Positions 1 to 5,363 of a stretch of 55,559 bases of DNA are shown here, in pieces (the first letter of the stretch is position 1; each line of letters opens with the position of its first letter). The position numbers and the translations under genes are program-made. The stretch is from assembly GCA_944325005.1 (NCBI GenBank), contig CALUYO010000010.1, forward strand, positions 1 through 55,559. Direction: 5' to 3'. The notes under the pieces are model-generated. The model was not told where the DNA came from, did not search any database, and saw nothing but the letters and a program-made list of their open reading frames with translations. The DNA comes from Candidatus Gastranaerophilales bacterium. Its GTDB lineage: Bacteria; Cyanobacteriota; Vampirovibrionia; Gastranaerophilales; Gastranaerophilaceae.

Positions 1-455
1 GTTCCATAATTGTCAAACATCTTAACCCAACGATGAAGTGTACCTATCGAAATTGAACCAACAAACTTATATATTTGGGGCAAATACATTCCGCTATTGT
101 ATAAATCTAAAAATACTGAATCAGCCTCTTTTTTAGTTGGATATTTTTTACGAATATTATATAAGGCAGTTACTATATCCACTCGTGCAAGTGCTGTTAA
201 TCTTGCATTTTCGGACACAAAATTCACCTTATTTTCAAACGGAACAATTGATGTTGTTTTTAATTCTTCTTCATCTAATCTATCTTGTATATCAGACTCT
301 AATGAAGAATAAAGAATTTCATACGATTTCCCGCCTCTTACTTCAACTTCTCTTGCAATATACTTACCTTGGTTGATTGCAAGTCTTATCGAACGGGTAC
401 TTTTTAAGCCTTTTAATTCTGCGATTTTATTAATACTTATATATTCGTCGTCCAT
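1..455 (-). CDS. Mu-like transposase, N-terminal part (runs off left edge)
   Basis: The minus strand is open from an ATG at 455 to the window edge, about 151 residues, with no stop. The product starts MDDEYISINKIAELKGL. It has a winged-helix-like start (residues about 5-30) and then RGGKSYEILYSSLE, which fits the GGRGGKxYxIPxSSLP signature after the first DNA-binding domain of MuA-type transposases. A second HTH-like segment (SIGTLHRWVKMFD) lies near the edge. MuA-family proteins bind element ends and catalyse transposition; the DDE catalytic domain would lie left of the window. No SD is obvious upstream. It could instead be another DDE integrase with the same N-terminal module, but the GKSYEI...SSLE segment makes the Mu family the best reading. 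Confidence 0.72.
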   Translation of the reverse strand, partial: MDDEYISINKIAELKGLKSTRSIRLAINQGKYIAREVEVRGGKSYEILYSSLESDIQDRLDEEELKTTSIVPFENKVNFVSENARLTALARVDIVTALYNIRKKYPTKKEADSVFLDLYNSGMYLPQIYKFVGSISIGTLHRWVKMFDNYG

Positions 456-623
456 ACATACAGATTAACTCTGAAGTCGGAAATGTGTTCCTTTTTTCTT
501 TCTTTTGTATCATTAGGACATAATTATAGCTATATTTATCTGAATTAATTAATTTCGTATAATCTTAATGAAGTGAAATAATACAGCATATAGTGAATTA
601 TTTTCACTAGTAGAGAAATATCC
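456..623. other. Intergenic region upstream of the transposase, with an inverted repeat
   Basis: No open reading frame is visible. An imperfect inverted repeat, AGTGAAATAAT and ATTATTTTCACT (about 573-610), sits between the transposase start and the retron promoter. It could be an operator of the transposase gene or part of a Mu-like element end. Neither is proven. Confidence 0.3.
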
Positions 624-651
624 TTGACAGAAATTTTTTATTTTTTATAAT
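624..651 (+). promoter_or_regulatory. Consensus sigma-70 promoter of the retron-like cassette
   Basis: TTGACA at 624-629 and TATAAT at 646-651 are separated by 16 nt; both hexamers match consensus perfectly. Transcription should start near 658. The first good coding start comes only about 335 nt later, so the promoter drives a long untranslated structured RNA, as expected for a retron msr-msd transcript. Confidence 0.8.
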
Positions 652-657
652 GGTCAT

Positions 658-992
658 GTAAGGAGTCAAATGCTCCAAATAGAATAAAACCAAGAAATTG
701 GTTTGCGAACATTGACAATAGTCGGTTCAAACACCGGGGACGCCGATAATAAATATTAAGTAATAAATATTATTGATAACTAATAATTATTAATAATAAA
801 GTTATGGTAAAAGAATTATTGCTTAAGATACAGAACAGCATAATAGAATTATAGGCGTACTCAGCCAGCGAGGAGCAAATCGCTGGCAGTAAAATTAGAG
901 GGAGATGCTATACTTTGGTGTTCACTTCTTACAACCTTTCATAAAAGGAGCAGACCTGAATGTGTCAGGTGAAATATGAAAGGAGGCTCTAT
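658..992 (+). ncRNA. Structured leader RNA, candidate retron msr-msd
   Basis: Between the promoter and the first small ORF there is no long reading frame but several strong hairpins. AAACCAA-GAAA-TTGGTTT (about 687-704) is a 7-bp stem with a GNRA-type loop. GCCAGCGA...TCGCTGGC (about 863-886) is a perfect 8-bp stem. CCTTTCATA...TATGAAAGG (about 936-983) is a 9-bp outer stem enclosing ACCTGA...TCAGGT. Retron RTs use an RNA encoded directly upstream as template and primer, so its place ahead of the RT fits. I could not identify the a1/a2 repeats or the branching G with certainty; the exact ends are inferred. The last hairpin overlaps the SD of the next ORF. Confidence 0.5.
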
Positions 993-1073
993 ATGAGTAT
1001 TAAAAAACCACCAAAGTGGGTATGGCTCGTAGTAAGAATTATTCTTATTATAATTGAGAAATACTTTAGCTAA
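993..1073 (+). CDS. 26-aa hydrophobic micropeptide in the retron-like cassette
   Basis: This ATG ORF has a very strong SD (GAAAGGAGG, 7 nt before the ATG) and encodes 26 residues: a basic, Pro-containing start (MSIKKPPK), a single hydrophobic segment WVWLVVRIILIII, and the tail EKYFS. That is the layout of a one-pass membrane micropeptide, like type I toxins and other small membrane-active peptides. The upstream hairpin CCTTTCATA...TATGAAAGG includes the GAAAGG of the SD, so translation may be gated by RNA structure. The HTH-RT pair begins 36 nt downstream on the same strand. No family is recognised. It may be the effector of the cassette or a leader peptide; both are inferences. Confidence 0.55.
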   Translation: MSIKKPPKWVWLVVRIILIIIEKYFS

Positions 1074-1109
1074 AACACTTCCTCTTTTTTGATGCAAAAG
1101 GAAACGAAA

Positions 1110-1415
1110 ATGTCAAAATTAAATGAAGCACTAAGATTGATAAGAACATTTCATGGTACTAAAATTAAAGATTTAGCAGATAAAATTCAAGTTTCAGCAG
1201 GATATATTTCTGATATTGAAAAAGGAAACAAAAAGCCTTCAATGGATTTAATTGAAAAATATGCGGAATTCTTTAATACAACACCCTCAGCATTGTTGTT
1301 TTTTTCTGAAGAATTAGATTCACAAAGAGGACCTTTTAAAAATATTATCAGAAATCAAATGCTAATGTTACTAAGAGCTCTAGAGGATAAAACACTTGGA
1401 AACAATCAAGAATAA
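1110..1415 (+). CDS. XRE/Cro-type HTH protein of the retron-like cassette
   Basis: The 101-aa product starts MSKLNEALRLIRTFHG and contains a Cro/C1-type helix-turn-helix (KIKDLADKIQVSAGYISDIEKGNKKPSMDLIEKYAEFF split over residues about 17-52). The ATG at 1110 is preferred over TTG 1089 and ATG 1092 because AAAGGA lies 7-8 nt before it. The gene overlaps the reverse transcriptase by 20 nt, implying translational coupling. One retron class in published classifications (type VI, from memory) pairs the RT with just such a small HTH protein. Its role is unknown; it could repress the cassette promoter or act as an antitoxin. The C-terminal 40 residues are helical and unassigned. Confidence 0.8.
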   Translation: MSKLNEALRLIRTFHGTKIKDLADKIQVSAGYISDIEKGNKKPSMDLIEKYAEFFNTTPSALLFFSEELDSQRGPFKNIIRNQMLMLLRALEDKTLGNNQE

Positions 1416-2313
1416 AACGTATTCAATAGAAAAGAGTCCATTATATCAATTAAAAAGCAGAAAAAAACTTTTAGAAATGTTCTATGTCCAAAAATATAAT
1501 TTGCTTGAAAAGTTAACCTTAGACCAATCAAATTACAAAATTTATAATATACAAGATAAAAATAAACCTAAAAAAAGAAAAATTGAAGAACCTAAAGATC
1601 ATTTAAAAAAATTTCATAAAAGATTTAATGATTTATTACAAAGAATAGAAGTCCCAGAATTTGTAAAAGCAGGAATAAAAGGAAGTTGTTACGTCGATAA
1701 TGGAAGAGCTCATATAAATGGAAAATATTTTTTTTGTAGCGATATTGAAAAGTTTTTTCCAAATTCAAGAAAACAAAAAGTTTTTCAATTCTTACTATAT
1801 GATTTACAAATGGAAGCTGATATAGCTAGTCTATTAACCAGTATTTTAACATATGATAACCATTTACCGACCGGAGCACCTTCAAGTCAGTTGTTGACAT
1901 ATTGGGCTTATAAGAAAACCTTTAATGATATTTATAAAAAAGCAAAATCCTATGGTATATTAATGACTCTTTTTGTTGATGATTTGACATTTTCTAGTGA
2001 GCAACCAATCCCACAATCTTTTAAAGATTATGTTGTTAATAGATTAAACAGTGAAGGACTTTCAATAAATAAGAAAAAAACAAAAACGTTTAATGAGAAT
2101 CAATATAAAAAAACTACAGGAACTGTAATTTCTCCAGATAATAAATTGTTAGTACCAAATAAACTCCAACATAAAATTTACATTTTGAAACATAAAGAAA
2201 ATAAAACAGACAAAGAAATAATGAGTTTAAAAGGAATGCTTAATTCCGCAAGACAAATAAACAAAAATTTTATGAATGATTATTATACAAAATTAATGCA
2301 AACGAAAAATTAA
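1396..2313 (+). CDS. Retron-type reverse transcriptase
   Basis: The 305-aa product has the RT motifs in order: FFCSDIEKFFPNS with the first catalytic Asp near residue 116, LPTGAPSSQ (about 157-164), FVDDLTFSS in place of YADD (about 193-196), and a TTGTVIS segment (about 240-246) at the position of the retron VTG motif in region Y. About 300 aa without maturase or endonuclease domain is the usual size for retron RTs. It would make a branched RNA-DNA (msDNA) from the upstream ncRNA. The start is TTG 1396, with AGAGGA 8 nt upstream inside the HTH gene. The RNA-HTH-RT order points to an HTH-associated retron. Codons are very A-rich, as in the neighbouring accessory DNA. Confidence 0.87.
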   Translation: METIKNKTYSIEKSPLYQLKSRKKLLEMFYVQKYNLLEKLTLDQSNYKIYNIQDKNKPKKRKIEEPKDHLKKFHKRFNDLLQRIEVPEFVKAGIKGSCYVDNGRAHINGKYFFCSDIEKFFPNSRKQKVFQFLLYDLQMEADIASLLTSILTYDNHLPTGAPSSQLLTYWAYKKTFNDIYKKAKSYGILMTLFVDDLTFSSEQPIPQSFKDYVVNRLNSEGLSINKKKTKTFNENQYKKTTGTVISPDNKLLVPNKLQHKIYILKHKENKTDKEIMSLKGMLNSARQINKNFMNDYYTKLMQTKN

Positions 2314-2626
2314 TATATTCTTTTAAAAATTTTAACCCAACCGGACTTTATTTACTTAAAATGTCAAATAATCGTTTTAGCCGTACAATTTAGATTATGA
2401 GGGCGAAATCGTCTATAACATTGGTTTTAAAATAGAAAATTTTAGACAATTCTTGGACAGTAATGAGACAATGATGACCAGTAAAAGACCATTTTGTAAC
2501 ATATAAAACGATTACTTCCGACTGCTAAAGGTCAAACACAAAGCCAACTTTGCCGAATAATCTTTTTATGCGTTCAGATAAAATGTCCCGTTAAATTACA
2601 ACAAAAAACTACAAAAATATAACAAT
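2314..2626. other. Non-coding stretch after the RT, possibly decayed coding DNA
   Basis: No intact gene is visible. A short open stretch on the plus strand (about 2385-2505) reads NLDYEGEIVYNIGFKIENF and further residues, then stops; it looks protein-like but has no start signal. It may be a remnant of a lost gene of the mobile region. Confidence 0.3.
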
Positions 2627-2663
2627 AAAAAAGAGGATAGGATTTATTCCTTACCTCTTTTTT
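2627..2663. terminator. Bidirectional terminator between retron cassette and tRNA
   Basis: AAAAAAGAGG (2627-2636) pairs with CCTCTTTTTT (2654-2663) around a short inner stem; both strands end in a T run. It can end the tRNA transcript (minus) and the retron operon (plus). Confidence 0.75.
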
Positions 2664-2666
2664 ATT

Positions 2667-2740
2667 TAGCAAGGGAGAGATTCGAACTCTCGACCTCACG
2701 GGTATGAGCCGTGCGCTCTCACCAACTGAGCTACCTTGCC
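2667..2740 (-). tRNA. tRNA-Met (CAU anticodon)
   Basis: On the minus strand from 2740: acceptor GGCAAGG pairing with CCTTGCT (one G-U), D arm AGCTCAGTTGGTGAGAGC, anticodon loop CTCATAC giving CAU, and T arm GAGAG-TTCGAAT-CTCTC. The discriminator is A at 2667 and CCA is not encoded. CAU may be elongator or initiator Met, or a lysidine-modified Ile tRNA. The first pair being G-U (1-72), not an A-C-type mismatch, and the lack of GGG/CCC in the anticodon stem favour elongator. The gene borders the mobile region, a common integration site. Confidence 0.93.
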
Positions 2741-2907
2741 ACATTATTATTCAATTGTTTTTGGCTCAGTTGGCTCGAGCGATGCTCTCATAAAAATTTG
2801 AATTTTGTTCGCTACGCTCACGGGAGCTACCTTGCCATAATATTTACACAGCCAATTAACTGTCAAGTCCTATCTTTGCATAAACAAAATTAAATTTCAA
2901 GTTTTTT
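2741..2907. repeat. Partial copy of the tRNA-Met 5' end
   Basis: GAGCTACCTTGCCA occurs in the tRNA gene at 2728-2741 and again at 2824-2837, same orientation. Between them GGCTCAGTTGGCTCGAGCG (from 2763) is also tRNA-like. This looks like a decayed duplicate of the tRNA 5' part. Such pieces are left by integration or by tandem tRNA duplication and decay; the sequence does not decide which. Confidence 0.5.
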
Positions 2908-3866
2908 TTATTTACATTTTGTCTTCCCATGCCAGCTTAAATCATTACAGTGCAAATAATCCATATTTTCATTTGTAATTACCCAGGCTGCACAGCCATA
3001 TCCATTTAAACTATTCTTCTTGGATAAATTACAATATTTATCCAATGAATAAGATGTTTCCTCTGCGGTTCCCATCGGTACAATTCCATATTTGGTAAAA
3101 TAAAAAAGAAAAACATCTTTTCCTGTTGCATTAGGAGGTTTTGGTCCGTTTAAATCAATAAAAAGCTGACCGCATACATTCTGTAACATTTTACTTGTAC
3201 CGACAACAGAGCTGCAAGTACCGCTGGAAACAGTAGTCCCTACTATTGTTGTACCATCAGCAAACACCAATCTCGGAGTAAACTTGCTAAATGCAGTGCC
3301 ATCAAGTGATTCTCGATCATATTTATTTGCACAGCTGTCATCACCGTAATTACAACGGGAAACAAGTTTCAAATAAGGGGATACTCTATCCCAGAATAAA
3401 TTTATTGATTTGTTACCAGCCTCACGCTCTTCGTCAGTAGGCTCAGTTGTCATACCGGCAGTGGCAAGACCCCAATCTTCAATCATACCATTTTCATTTA
3501 TTGCCATCATTAATGCCTGATTCATGACACTGTTAAATTTTTTCAATTTTGCAGTATACTCCTTTTCTTTAGAATTTTGGATAAGTACAGGCATTGTCAT
3601 AGCAGCAACAACACCTATAATTCCCAATGTAATAAGAACTTCTGCCAGAGTAAATGCACAACGACGTATATTTTTGAAAGTCGTTACCTGCGGAGTCCAA
3701 GTTGAAATAGTAAAACAAAATTTTCCTTTAAAATTCTTATTGCTGATATGATGTTCCATATCACTATTATAGCAAATTTTTTTTATTTTACAACCGGAAA
3801 AAATACGGTCAATAAGCTCTAAGCGCCCCCCCCCCGATGGGATTTAATACAAATCTTTTTCACCAT
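2908..3866 (-). CDS. Pseudopilin-like gene, frame-shifted OFF by a 10-nt poly-G tract
   Basis: The body encodes a type IV prepilin/pseudopilin-like protein: a CAFTLAEVLITLGIIGVVAAM methylation-type segment, a long alpha-helix (YTAKLKKFNSVMNQAL), then a Cys-rich globular part ending in HCNDLSWHGKTKCK. An ATG at 3759 keeps the frame but has no SD. An ATG at 3866 has AAAGGAG 7-8 nt upstream and opens a frame MVKKICIKSHR followed by the G tract. With the present 10 G that frame stops at once (TAG), but with 8 or 11 G it reads through without stops into the FTLAE frame. So the gene appears phase OFF. The leader would be about 70 aa, long for a prepilin. Function: probably a secreted or surface fibre subunit needing a prepilin peptidase encoded elsewhere. 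The next gene rightwards is divergent. Confidence 0.75.
3826..3835. repeat. Poly-C/G tract (10 nt) in a pseudopilin leader
   Basis: Ten consecutive C on the plus strand (G on the coding strand) lie 30 nt after the SD-supported ATG. In this AT-rich DNA such a run is exceptional. It is a likely slipped-strand switch. Confidence 0.85.
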
Positions 3867-3983: not shown

Positions 3984-5363
3984 ATGATTACGGACATGAC
4001 AAAGGGAAACCCCTTAAAACATATACTTTTATTTTCGGTTCCTCTTTTAATAGGGAACATTTTTCAACAGTTATATAATATTGCCGATCTTGTCATTGTA
4101 GGCCGTACGCTTGGTGTTGAATCTTTTGCAGCTGTCGGAGCTGTTGCTCCGGTATTTTTTCTTATAACTTTTATTATTGTAGGATTGACTAACGGTTTTG
4201 CAGTTATAACAGGACAGAGATACGGGGCTAAAGATATTGAAGGGGTCAGAAATTCAGTTGTTGTATCAACAATTCTAAGCACTATTGTAACACTTATTTT
4301 TTCTGTAGTTTGTTCATTATGTTTAAACCCTATTTTAGGTTGGATGAATGTTCCGGAAAATATTTATCATAACGCTTACTGGTATGTTGAAATTATTATT
4401 CTGGGTTTAATAATTACAACTATGTATAATATGATTTCAAGTATTATAAGGGCGCTTGGTGACAGTAAAACTCCTTTGTATTTCTTAATTATTGCATCTT
4501 TGATAAATATTATTTTAGCTCTGATTTTCATACAGGTTTTTCACATGGGTGTTCCCGGTTCTGCAATAGCAGTATTGTTATCACAGGGGATTTCCGTTCT
4601 TTTATGTCTGTTATTTGTGAGATACAGGATGCCAATTTTACGAATACACAGGCATGAATGGCTTATAAAATTTGACAGAGATTTTTTTAATTCAGCCTAT
4701 GAACATTTACGTGTAGGTGTTCCTATGGCCGTTCAATTTTCAATAATCGGCATAAGCGTTCTTGTTATACAAAGTGTATGTAATTCTTTTGGTTCAAATG
4801 TTATTGCAGCATTTACAGCTGCACTCAGAATAGAACAAATTGCAACACTGCCTATGATGTCCTTCGGAGTTGCACTGGCCGCTTATGTTGCACAGAATTT
4901 TGGGGCCAGAAAGTTTAAAAGAATAAGGCTGGGTGTTATAAAAACATCAACAATAAACATTATATTGAGTATAATTATGGCATTTGTAATGCGTATTTGG
5001 GGAACTGATATTATAGGCGCATTTATCGGAACAGGGACAAAAGAAATTATTGATATTGCACACAATTATTTATTAATAAGTACAATATTCTACTTTTTTC
5101 TCGGACAGATTTTTATTTACAGAAATGCGCTTCAGGGGATGGGAGAAACCCTATTTCCTCTGCTTGCCTGTACGGCAGAGCTTGTAGTCAGAATTTTTGC
5201 GGCTGTATATCTTGCGATAAAATTTGGATATACCGGAATATTTTATGCAGGACCTATTGCCTGGGTAAGTGCTTCTGCTATAATGTTTTTCGGATATTTT
5301 GGCAGTATGAAACATATAATTTATAAAGTTAAAAATAGATTGCACAGCTACTTGCAAAGTTAA
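3984..5363 (+). CDS. MATE-family multidrug efflux transporter
   Basis: The 459-aa protein has about 12 hydrophobic segments. The start TKGNPLKHILLFSVPLLIGN and QQLYNIADLVIVGRTLG are classic for bacterial MATE transporters (MepA/DinF-like branch), with the two-fold internal repeat visible (second half from GVPMAVQFSIIG, about residue 245). MATE proteins export cationic drugs and metabolites using Na+ or H+ gradients across the inner membrane. Length is normal. ATG 3984 is preceded by AAGG. It is followed 47 nt later by enolase on the same strand. The substrate is unknown. Confidence 0.9.
   Translation: MITDMTKGNPLKHILLFSVPLLIGNIFQQLYNIADLVIVGRTLGVESFAAVGAVAPVFFLITFIIVGLTNGFAVITGQRYGAKDIEGVRNSVVVSTILSTIVTLIFSVVCSLCLNPILGWMNVPENIYHNAYWYVEIIILGLIITTMYNMISSIIRALGDSKTPLYFLIIASLINIILALIFIQVFHMGVPGSAIAVLLSQGISVLLCLLFVRYRMPILRIHRHEWLIKFDRDFFNSAYEHLRVGVPMAVQFSIIGISVLVIQSVCNSFGSNVIAAFTAALRIEQIATLPMMSFGVALAAYVAQNFGARKFKRIRLGVIKTSTINIILSIIMAFVMRIWGTDIIGAFIGTGTKEIIDIAHNYLLISTIFYFFLGQIFIYRNALQGMGETLFPLLACTAELVVRIFAAVYLAIKFGYTGIFYAGPIAWVSASAIMFFGYFGSMKHIIYKVKNRLHSYLQS

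Follow-up and report, generated by a model that had tools for sequence, protein, structure and literature searches.

What serves as the effector of a type VI retron? No paper in the literature that we searched names one for this class, which is reportedly among those of the Mestre et al. 2020 classification. The question arises near one end of a 55,559-nt stretch of DNA from Candidatus Gastranaerophilales bacterium (contig CALUYO010000010.1; the whole stretch is called the window here). A sequence-only reading of this DNA had described a retron-like cassette with an additional 26-codon ORF, and had suggested that the hydrophobic product of that ORF is a toxic effector, restrained by RNA structure or by an HTH/msDNA complex and freed when a phage disturbs the msDNA.

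Judged by its proteins, the cassette is a type VI retron; retrons are RT elements that have been connected with phage defence. Positions 593–2313 of the plus strand carry, in order, a palindrome, a promoter, a structured leader, the 26-aa ORF, an HTH gene and an overlapping RT gene (Table 1). The assignment rests on the best PADLOC matches of the two larger proteins, namely RT_VI for the RT (E = 2.1e-77, with RT_III-A as runner-up at 4e-37) and HTH_VI for the HTH protein (E = 1.2e-25). NGRAH, TTG and FVDD motifs are present in the translated RT sequence, and an alignment of 16 sequences shows no change at the catalytic aspartates (116, 195 and 196). The HTH gene, for which the start (ATG 1110) was chosen by homology and the stop ends at 1415, lies 5' of the RT gene and overlaps it at 1396–1415. 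Hence both the retron-like character of the cassette and its pairing of an HTH gene with an overlapping RT containing FVDD and TTG had been recognized correctly. The extent originally proposed (624–2313) stands as such, except that the cassette begins ∼30 nt earlier if the probable operator is counted. Single-sequence scans of genome contigs and viral contigs with the RT returned an identical copy only, or nothing; an alignment-based scan yielded 48 viral loci.

Table 1. Features of the retron cassette, in window coordinates
Feature	Position	Strand	Evidence
Probable HTH operator: GTGAA-TTATT-TTCAC (593–607) overlapping TTCAC-TAGTA-GAGAA (603–617)	593–617	+	Adjoins –35 box; palindrome in relatives
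Sigma-70-type promoter: TTGACA (624–629), 16-nt spacer, TATAAT (646–651)	624–651	+	Sequence; position kept in L056
Predicted retron ncRNA (msr-msd)	657–933	+	Folding, relatives; RNA ends inferred
a1 TGTAAGGAGT / a2 ACTTCTTACA	657–666 / 924–933	+	10 bp including one G-U
msd stem-loop CCAGCGA...TCGCTGG	865–886	+	Fold; conserved in L056
Anti-ORF element TACTTTGGTG, 3' end of predicted msd, 3 nt before a2	911–920	+	Complementarity kept across lineages
Hairpin enclosing the Shine-Dalgarno: CCTTTCATA (935–943) with TATGAAAGG (975–983); Shine-Dalgarno AAGGAGG (980–986)	935–986	+	Fold, accessibility, swap test
In-frame ATG 960, a possible upstream start preceded by a second Shine-Dalgarno, AAAAGGAG; 37-aa form	960–992	+	Sequence
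ORF of the small membrane peptide (26 aa), a candidate effector	993–1073	+	Sequence, relatives, dN/dS, hydrophobicity
HTH_VI (Xre/Cro family) gene, probable autorepressor	1110–1415	+	HTH_VI 1.2e-25, HTH_3 9e-12
Type VI retron reverse transcriptase gene	1396–2313	+	RT_VI 2.1e-77, RVT_1 match, alignment

The small ORF runs from ATG 993 to a stop at 1073, is preceded by a perfect Shine-Dalgarno (SD) sequence, AAGGAGG, and encodes MSIKKPPKWVWLVVRIILIIIEKYFS. Every one of the 50 type VI cassettes with readable upstream DNA has an ORF of this kind, small and basic/hydrophobic, 5' of the HTH gene; these cassettes span Cyanobacteriota, Bacillota, and Alpha-, Beta- and Gammaproteobacteria, and represent about 23 independent lineages. 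With near-identical RTs removed, it is found just before the HTH start in 37/37 cassettes with upstream sequence, a count that leaves out L050, where the plasmid record ends and the upstream DNA is missing. It is also found in 13/13 plasmid cassettes fetched later from Alphaproteobacteria, Gammaproteobacteria and Staphylococcus, three of which are close to earlier ones. Across the 50 cassettes, 27–66 nt separate the stop of the small ORF from the HTH start, and peptide length ranges from 25 to 70 aa (median 51). The N-terminal half of the peptide is positively charged in every case, and its most hydrophobic 15-residue stretch scores 1.64, compared to 0.81 in shuffled peptides. In five lineages dN/dS values for the ORF are 0.38, 0.12, 0.24, 0.31 and 0.15, indicating that its amino acids are under selection. 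A check for absence of the ORF in close relatives found it in place: L056, which comes from another genus and has an RT 68% identical to that of the window, has MGDFKTPKWFILIIRLVLIIAELLG at the equivalent position, and in L057–L063 (RT 38% identical) the small ORFs have ...MRKKLRIKKWTGLLYTIIRAVILVLELLKHFK and similar sequences.

These data uphold the earlier view of a 26-aa hydrophobic ORF whose product resembles a membrane peptide, and show that its place, with the leader on one side and the HTH gene on the other, is conserved. On the evidence of its position and conservation, the ORF is not a chance one, and by composition, with a basic N-terminal half and a hydrophobic stretch, the peptide has a membrane-peptide make-up. 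Searches of Pfam, NCBIfam, PHROGs and PADLOC assign the window peptide to no family; database matches are confined to the P2-phage form, which hits PHROGs of unknown function. A membrane peptide so universally conserved points to an overlooked effector candidate of type VI retrons.

The consensus promoter noted before, TTGACA-N16-TATAAT, is present as described. Of 21 relatives scanned, 14 have a 15-bp palindrome of the form TTCRC-N5-GYGAA near the promoter, compared to 2 occurrences in 72,871 bp of sequence further downstream. It recurs in 10/13 later loci, and the window and L056 have degenerate forms of it. This palindrome is probably the operator of the HTH protein, which would repress transcription from that site.

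Downstream of the promoter, the leader (657–1010) has a predicted folding energy of –93.2 kcal/mol, compared to –63.0 ± 4.9 for shuffled sequences (z = –6.1), and none of 100 shuffles folds as well, in agreement with the structured non-coding leader of the sequence-only reading. The equivalent of a1/a2 in L056 is an 8-bp pair, ATGAGAGT/ACTCTCAT, altered on both sides relative to the window. This pairing is convincing within groups, although a swap test across lineages gave p = 0.29. A scan against Rfam detected tRNA only, with no match for the retron leader. A common layout can be drawn for the window/L056, Yersinia-phage and P2-phage groups: a1, msr, msd, anti-ORF element, a2, SD hairpin, ATG and complementary ORF segment. 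Between a2 and the SD, a GGCGA motif is conserved in five proteobacterial loci (L041, L042, L053, L087 and L091) and absent from the window's group.

Two conserved pairings involve the start of the small ORF. One is the hairpin that encloses its SD, which is supported by a swap test (p = 2e-5) that gives a null result when applied to the HTH gene. The SD is also less accessible at the small ORF than at the HTH gene, with mean unpaired values of 0.27 versus 0.38 (Wilcoxon p = 0.004, with related loci included). In the Yersinia-phage-type alignment, which comprises few sequences and a structure drawn from one of them, four helices taken together show changes on both sides in 15 of 39 pairs, versus 3.9 expected on shuffling, and the signal collapses when the helices are slid by one column. 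The ribosome site of the small ORF is thus predicted, from folds and co-variation, to be occluded in the primary transcript. Conserved structure around the ribosome-binding site fits the earlier proposal that the peptide is held back by RNA structure, and we infer repression from it. Inside the hairpin, in the segment 944–992, ATG 960 and its SD may form a control mini-ORF in this subgroup; the ATG is conserved in L056, where it opens a six-codon ORF. A universal upstream mini-ORF was considered and rejected, as ATG 960 is kept in L056 but not across lineages.

The other pairing joins the leader to the ORF. In the window, TACTTTGGTG (911–920) can pair with CACCAAAGTG (1009–1018), which lies among the first codons of the small ORF, and corresponding leader/ORF helices can be formed in Yersinia phage (CTGCCAAAA/TTTTGGCAG), P2 phages (TGCTGTTC/GAACAGCA), L087 (CAGCCAGTTA/TAACTGGCTG), L099 (CTTTTGAAAA/TTTTCAAAAG), L101 (CCTGCCGTTTG/CAAACGGCGGG) and L127 (CCGTTCTCG/CGAGAACGG). 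We quantified this complementarity in a fixed search box (leader –115 to –55, ORF +10 to +48), using one locus per independent lineage. Leaders score higher with their own ORFs than with swapped ones, both in 17 lineages (20.1 versus 14.5, p = 1e-5) and in 23 (20.4 versus 14.9, p = 1e-5). The signal in the 23 lineages is also stronger than when the ORF is recoded synonymously (Fisher p = 6e-6) or the leader is shuffled (2e-11). Because own pairs outperform swaps, recoding and shuffling alike, neither protein sequence nor base composition accounts for the complementarity. One caveat here is that the box and score were set after the first groups had been viewed, and hence the 17-lineage P values are somewhat flattering; a clean check comes from six lineages that were added once the hypothesis was in place, with p = 0.02 on each test. 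Six controls, in which the leader box was paired with later parts of the ORF or the HTH start, or other leader regions were paired with the ORF, showed no excess (p = 0.15–0.85). About 6 of the 23 lineages (L014, L046, L054, L095, L124 and L126) lack a clear helix within the box, although in L014 an imperfect one can be made out by eye. Taken on its own, the window gives a borderline result (p = 0.065 on synonymous recoding and 0.015 on leader shuffling); its helix is contained in the minimum-energy fold of a longer transcript, with a mean pair probability of 0.89.

Does this helix itself hide the ribosome site? Folding calculations do not support this: masking the leader element barely changes the opening energy, and the SD hairpin occludes the site either way. 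This result leaves room for the helix to act on the RT, and the leader/ORF helix may serve the RT rather than itself block initiation. Of the two means of control envisaged at the outset, RNA structure or an HTH/msDNA complex, the RNA part gains from the SD hairpin and from the leader/ORF helix formed where the msd meets a2; the HTH protein probably works at the promoter operator instead of holding the peptide.

These elements can be assembled into a model, to which we give about even chances: a type VI retron operon in which the small membrane peptide is the effector, its translation is locked by RNA, its promoter is repressed by the HTH protein and its output is set by the state of the RT and ncRNA. 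A single promoter, repressed by HTH at the adjacent palindrome, would produce a transcript containing the ncRNA (a1-msr-msd-a2), the small ORF, HTH and RT. One RNA lock would be the hairpin that takes in the SD of the small ORF and keeps translation low; the other would form when the final ∼10 nt of the msd, just before a2, pair with early codons of the ORF. Retron RTs prime and start copying next to a2. The anti-ORF element would then be the first stretch of template for the RT, and since priming occurs beside a2, it could not be paired with the ORF and copied into cDNA at the same time. It follows from such exclusion that the state of the RT and ncRNA and the expression of the peptide would be linked, in either direction. 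A phage that disturbs the RT-ncRNA complex (or HTH) would allow the peptide to be made, and the membrane of the infected cell would be damaged. A bolder and more tentative version, possible in our estimation, is that in most type VI retrons reverse transcription gates toxin translation, with the msd nucleotides that are copied first doubling as a cis antisense to toxin codons and gain or loss of cDNA switching the mRNA. Such a retron would amount to a type I toxin system under the control of DNA synthesis.

The same observations can be read in other ways. The peptide could be a membrane effector while the helix restrains the RT at the start of its template, such that ribosomes on the ORF free the template and translation of the peptide switches on msDNA synthesis. 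The position of the element at the msd-a2 junction, where by established retron biology RTs begin, suits this arrangement, as does the insensitivity of ribosome-site opening to masking of the element; it leaves the separately conserved SD hairpin unexplained unless both pairings regulate, and we regard it as rather unlikely. Alternatively, the small ORF might encode no effector and act as a regulatory leader peptide or as a coupling ORF for HTH/RT translation. It is short, lies immediately 5' of HTH amid RNA structure, and precedes an HTH SD that is often weak. However, a leader peptide needs neither the amino-acid selection seen in five lineages nor a basic N-terminus and hydrophobic helix that stay constant over five bacterial groups, which makes this role improbable.

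Nor is the killer necessarily the peptide. It might act at the membrane as an anchor or adaptor, recruiting either the RT/HTH complex or some unlinked effector of the host, with a neighbouring gene doing the killing in some hosts. Other candidate effectors do lie near several relatives, and in three alphaproteobacterial loci (L126, L128 and L129) a TIR gene follows directly downstream of the RT. But other cassettes have no constant third protein gene, and the window has no extra gene between the RT and tRNA-Met, so that we think an anchor quite unlikely. As for a chance ORF in a structured leader, short ORFs are common enough (78 of at least 25 aa in 9 kb), but presence at a fixed position in 50/50 cassettes, selection and a dedicated SD refute this explanation for practical purposes.

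How does the preferred model, with the peptide as an RNA-locked effector, compare to known systems? The window matches type VI retrons in the profiles of its RT and HTH proteins and in the order and overlap of their genes, and descriptions of these retrons in the accessible literature do not include the universality of the peptide, its selection or membrane make-up, the locked ribosome site or the pairing of the msd end. Type VI has been described as an RT, a DNA-binding protein and small auxiliary proteins (PMC8541194, citing Mestre et al. 2020), and short hypothetical ORFs before HTH were noticed earlier in two P2-like phages, with no function given (PMC8541194). In the open-access literature searched, one paper uses the name 'type VI retron', and we found no report of the RNA lock. 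Type VI itself is known, and within that literature the peptide and its RNA lock appear new.

The closest likeness is to type I toxin-antitoxin systems. The hok, zor, dinQ and Fst families combine a very small hydrophobic peptide with a sequestered ribosome site and an inert, structured primary transcript. In tisB mRNA, too, the ribosome site is sequestered and the primary transcript is structured and inert (PMC7708055). A very small hydrophobic peptide is common to all of these and the window cassette, for which sequestration and inertness are likewise predicted, whereas type I systems use a separate antisense RNA and the complementary element identified here lies in cis, inside the retron ncRNA. 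By this analogy, the best reading of the peptide is a membrane effector similar to type I toxins, with its translation locked by retron RNA. Eco1, Eco2, Eco8, Sen2 and other characterized retrons similarly consist of an RT, an ncRNA and a partner gene. In these retrons, however, a folded protein serves as effector and is restrained by the RT-msDNA complex at the protein level, while control in the window seems to fall on the effector mRNA. DRT2 resembles the window as an RT-based defence that links an RNA template to a small toxic product (PMC12039810), defence and toxicity being predictions in our case, and differs in making a new gene by rolling reverse transcription, whereas the ORF of the window is already encoded 3' of the ncRNA.

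A conserved RNA lock at the start of the reverse-transcription template, together with a membrane peptide, provides a concrete effector candidate and a testable mechanism. If the model is true, it would carry retron control beyond the sequestration of proteins to a toxin gated at the RNA level, and would tie retrons to the logic of type I toxin-antitoxin systems. Operator, lock and small ORF can also be used as annotation rules to find and delimit type VI ncRNAs, which Rfam does not detect.

The cassette appears to be mobile. A near-identical copy lies in another genus beside the same tRNA-Met, and homology stops at the tRNA, indicating that the cassette moves between genera and was transferred horizontally in recent times. 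Elsewhere, type VI cassettes are carried by P2-like and Mu-like phages and by plasmids. Window positions 292–2745 form a block ∼95% identical overall to L010/L055, a locus in another genus, in which the retron itself is nearly identical and which ends at tRNA-Met (2666–2741). At the edge of the window, a truncated 151-aa ORF (3–455, minus strand) shows a weak homeodomain-like HTH_23 match and has paralogues in G000:C11 (91%) and C4 (52%); it may be a transposase-like gene of the retron-carrying element. Toxin-antitoxin genes of type I (Fst, Hok/Gef) or type II (ParDE, MazEF) occur near the plasmid retrons L045, L132, L051, L120, L049 and L133. Finally, a run of ten C residues (3826–3835), a possible slippage tract, lies between a pilin-like gene (2908–3759, minus strand) and a multidrug-export-like ORF (3984–5363, plus strand).
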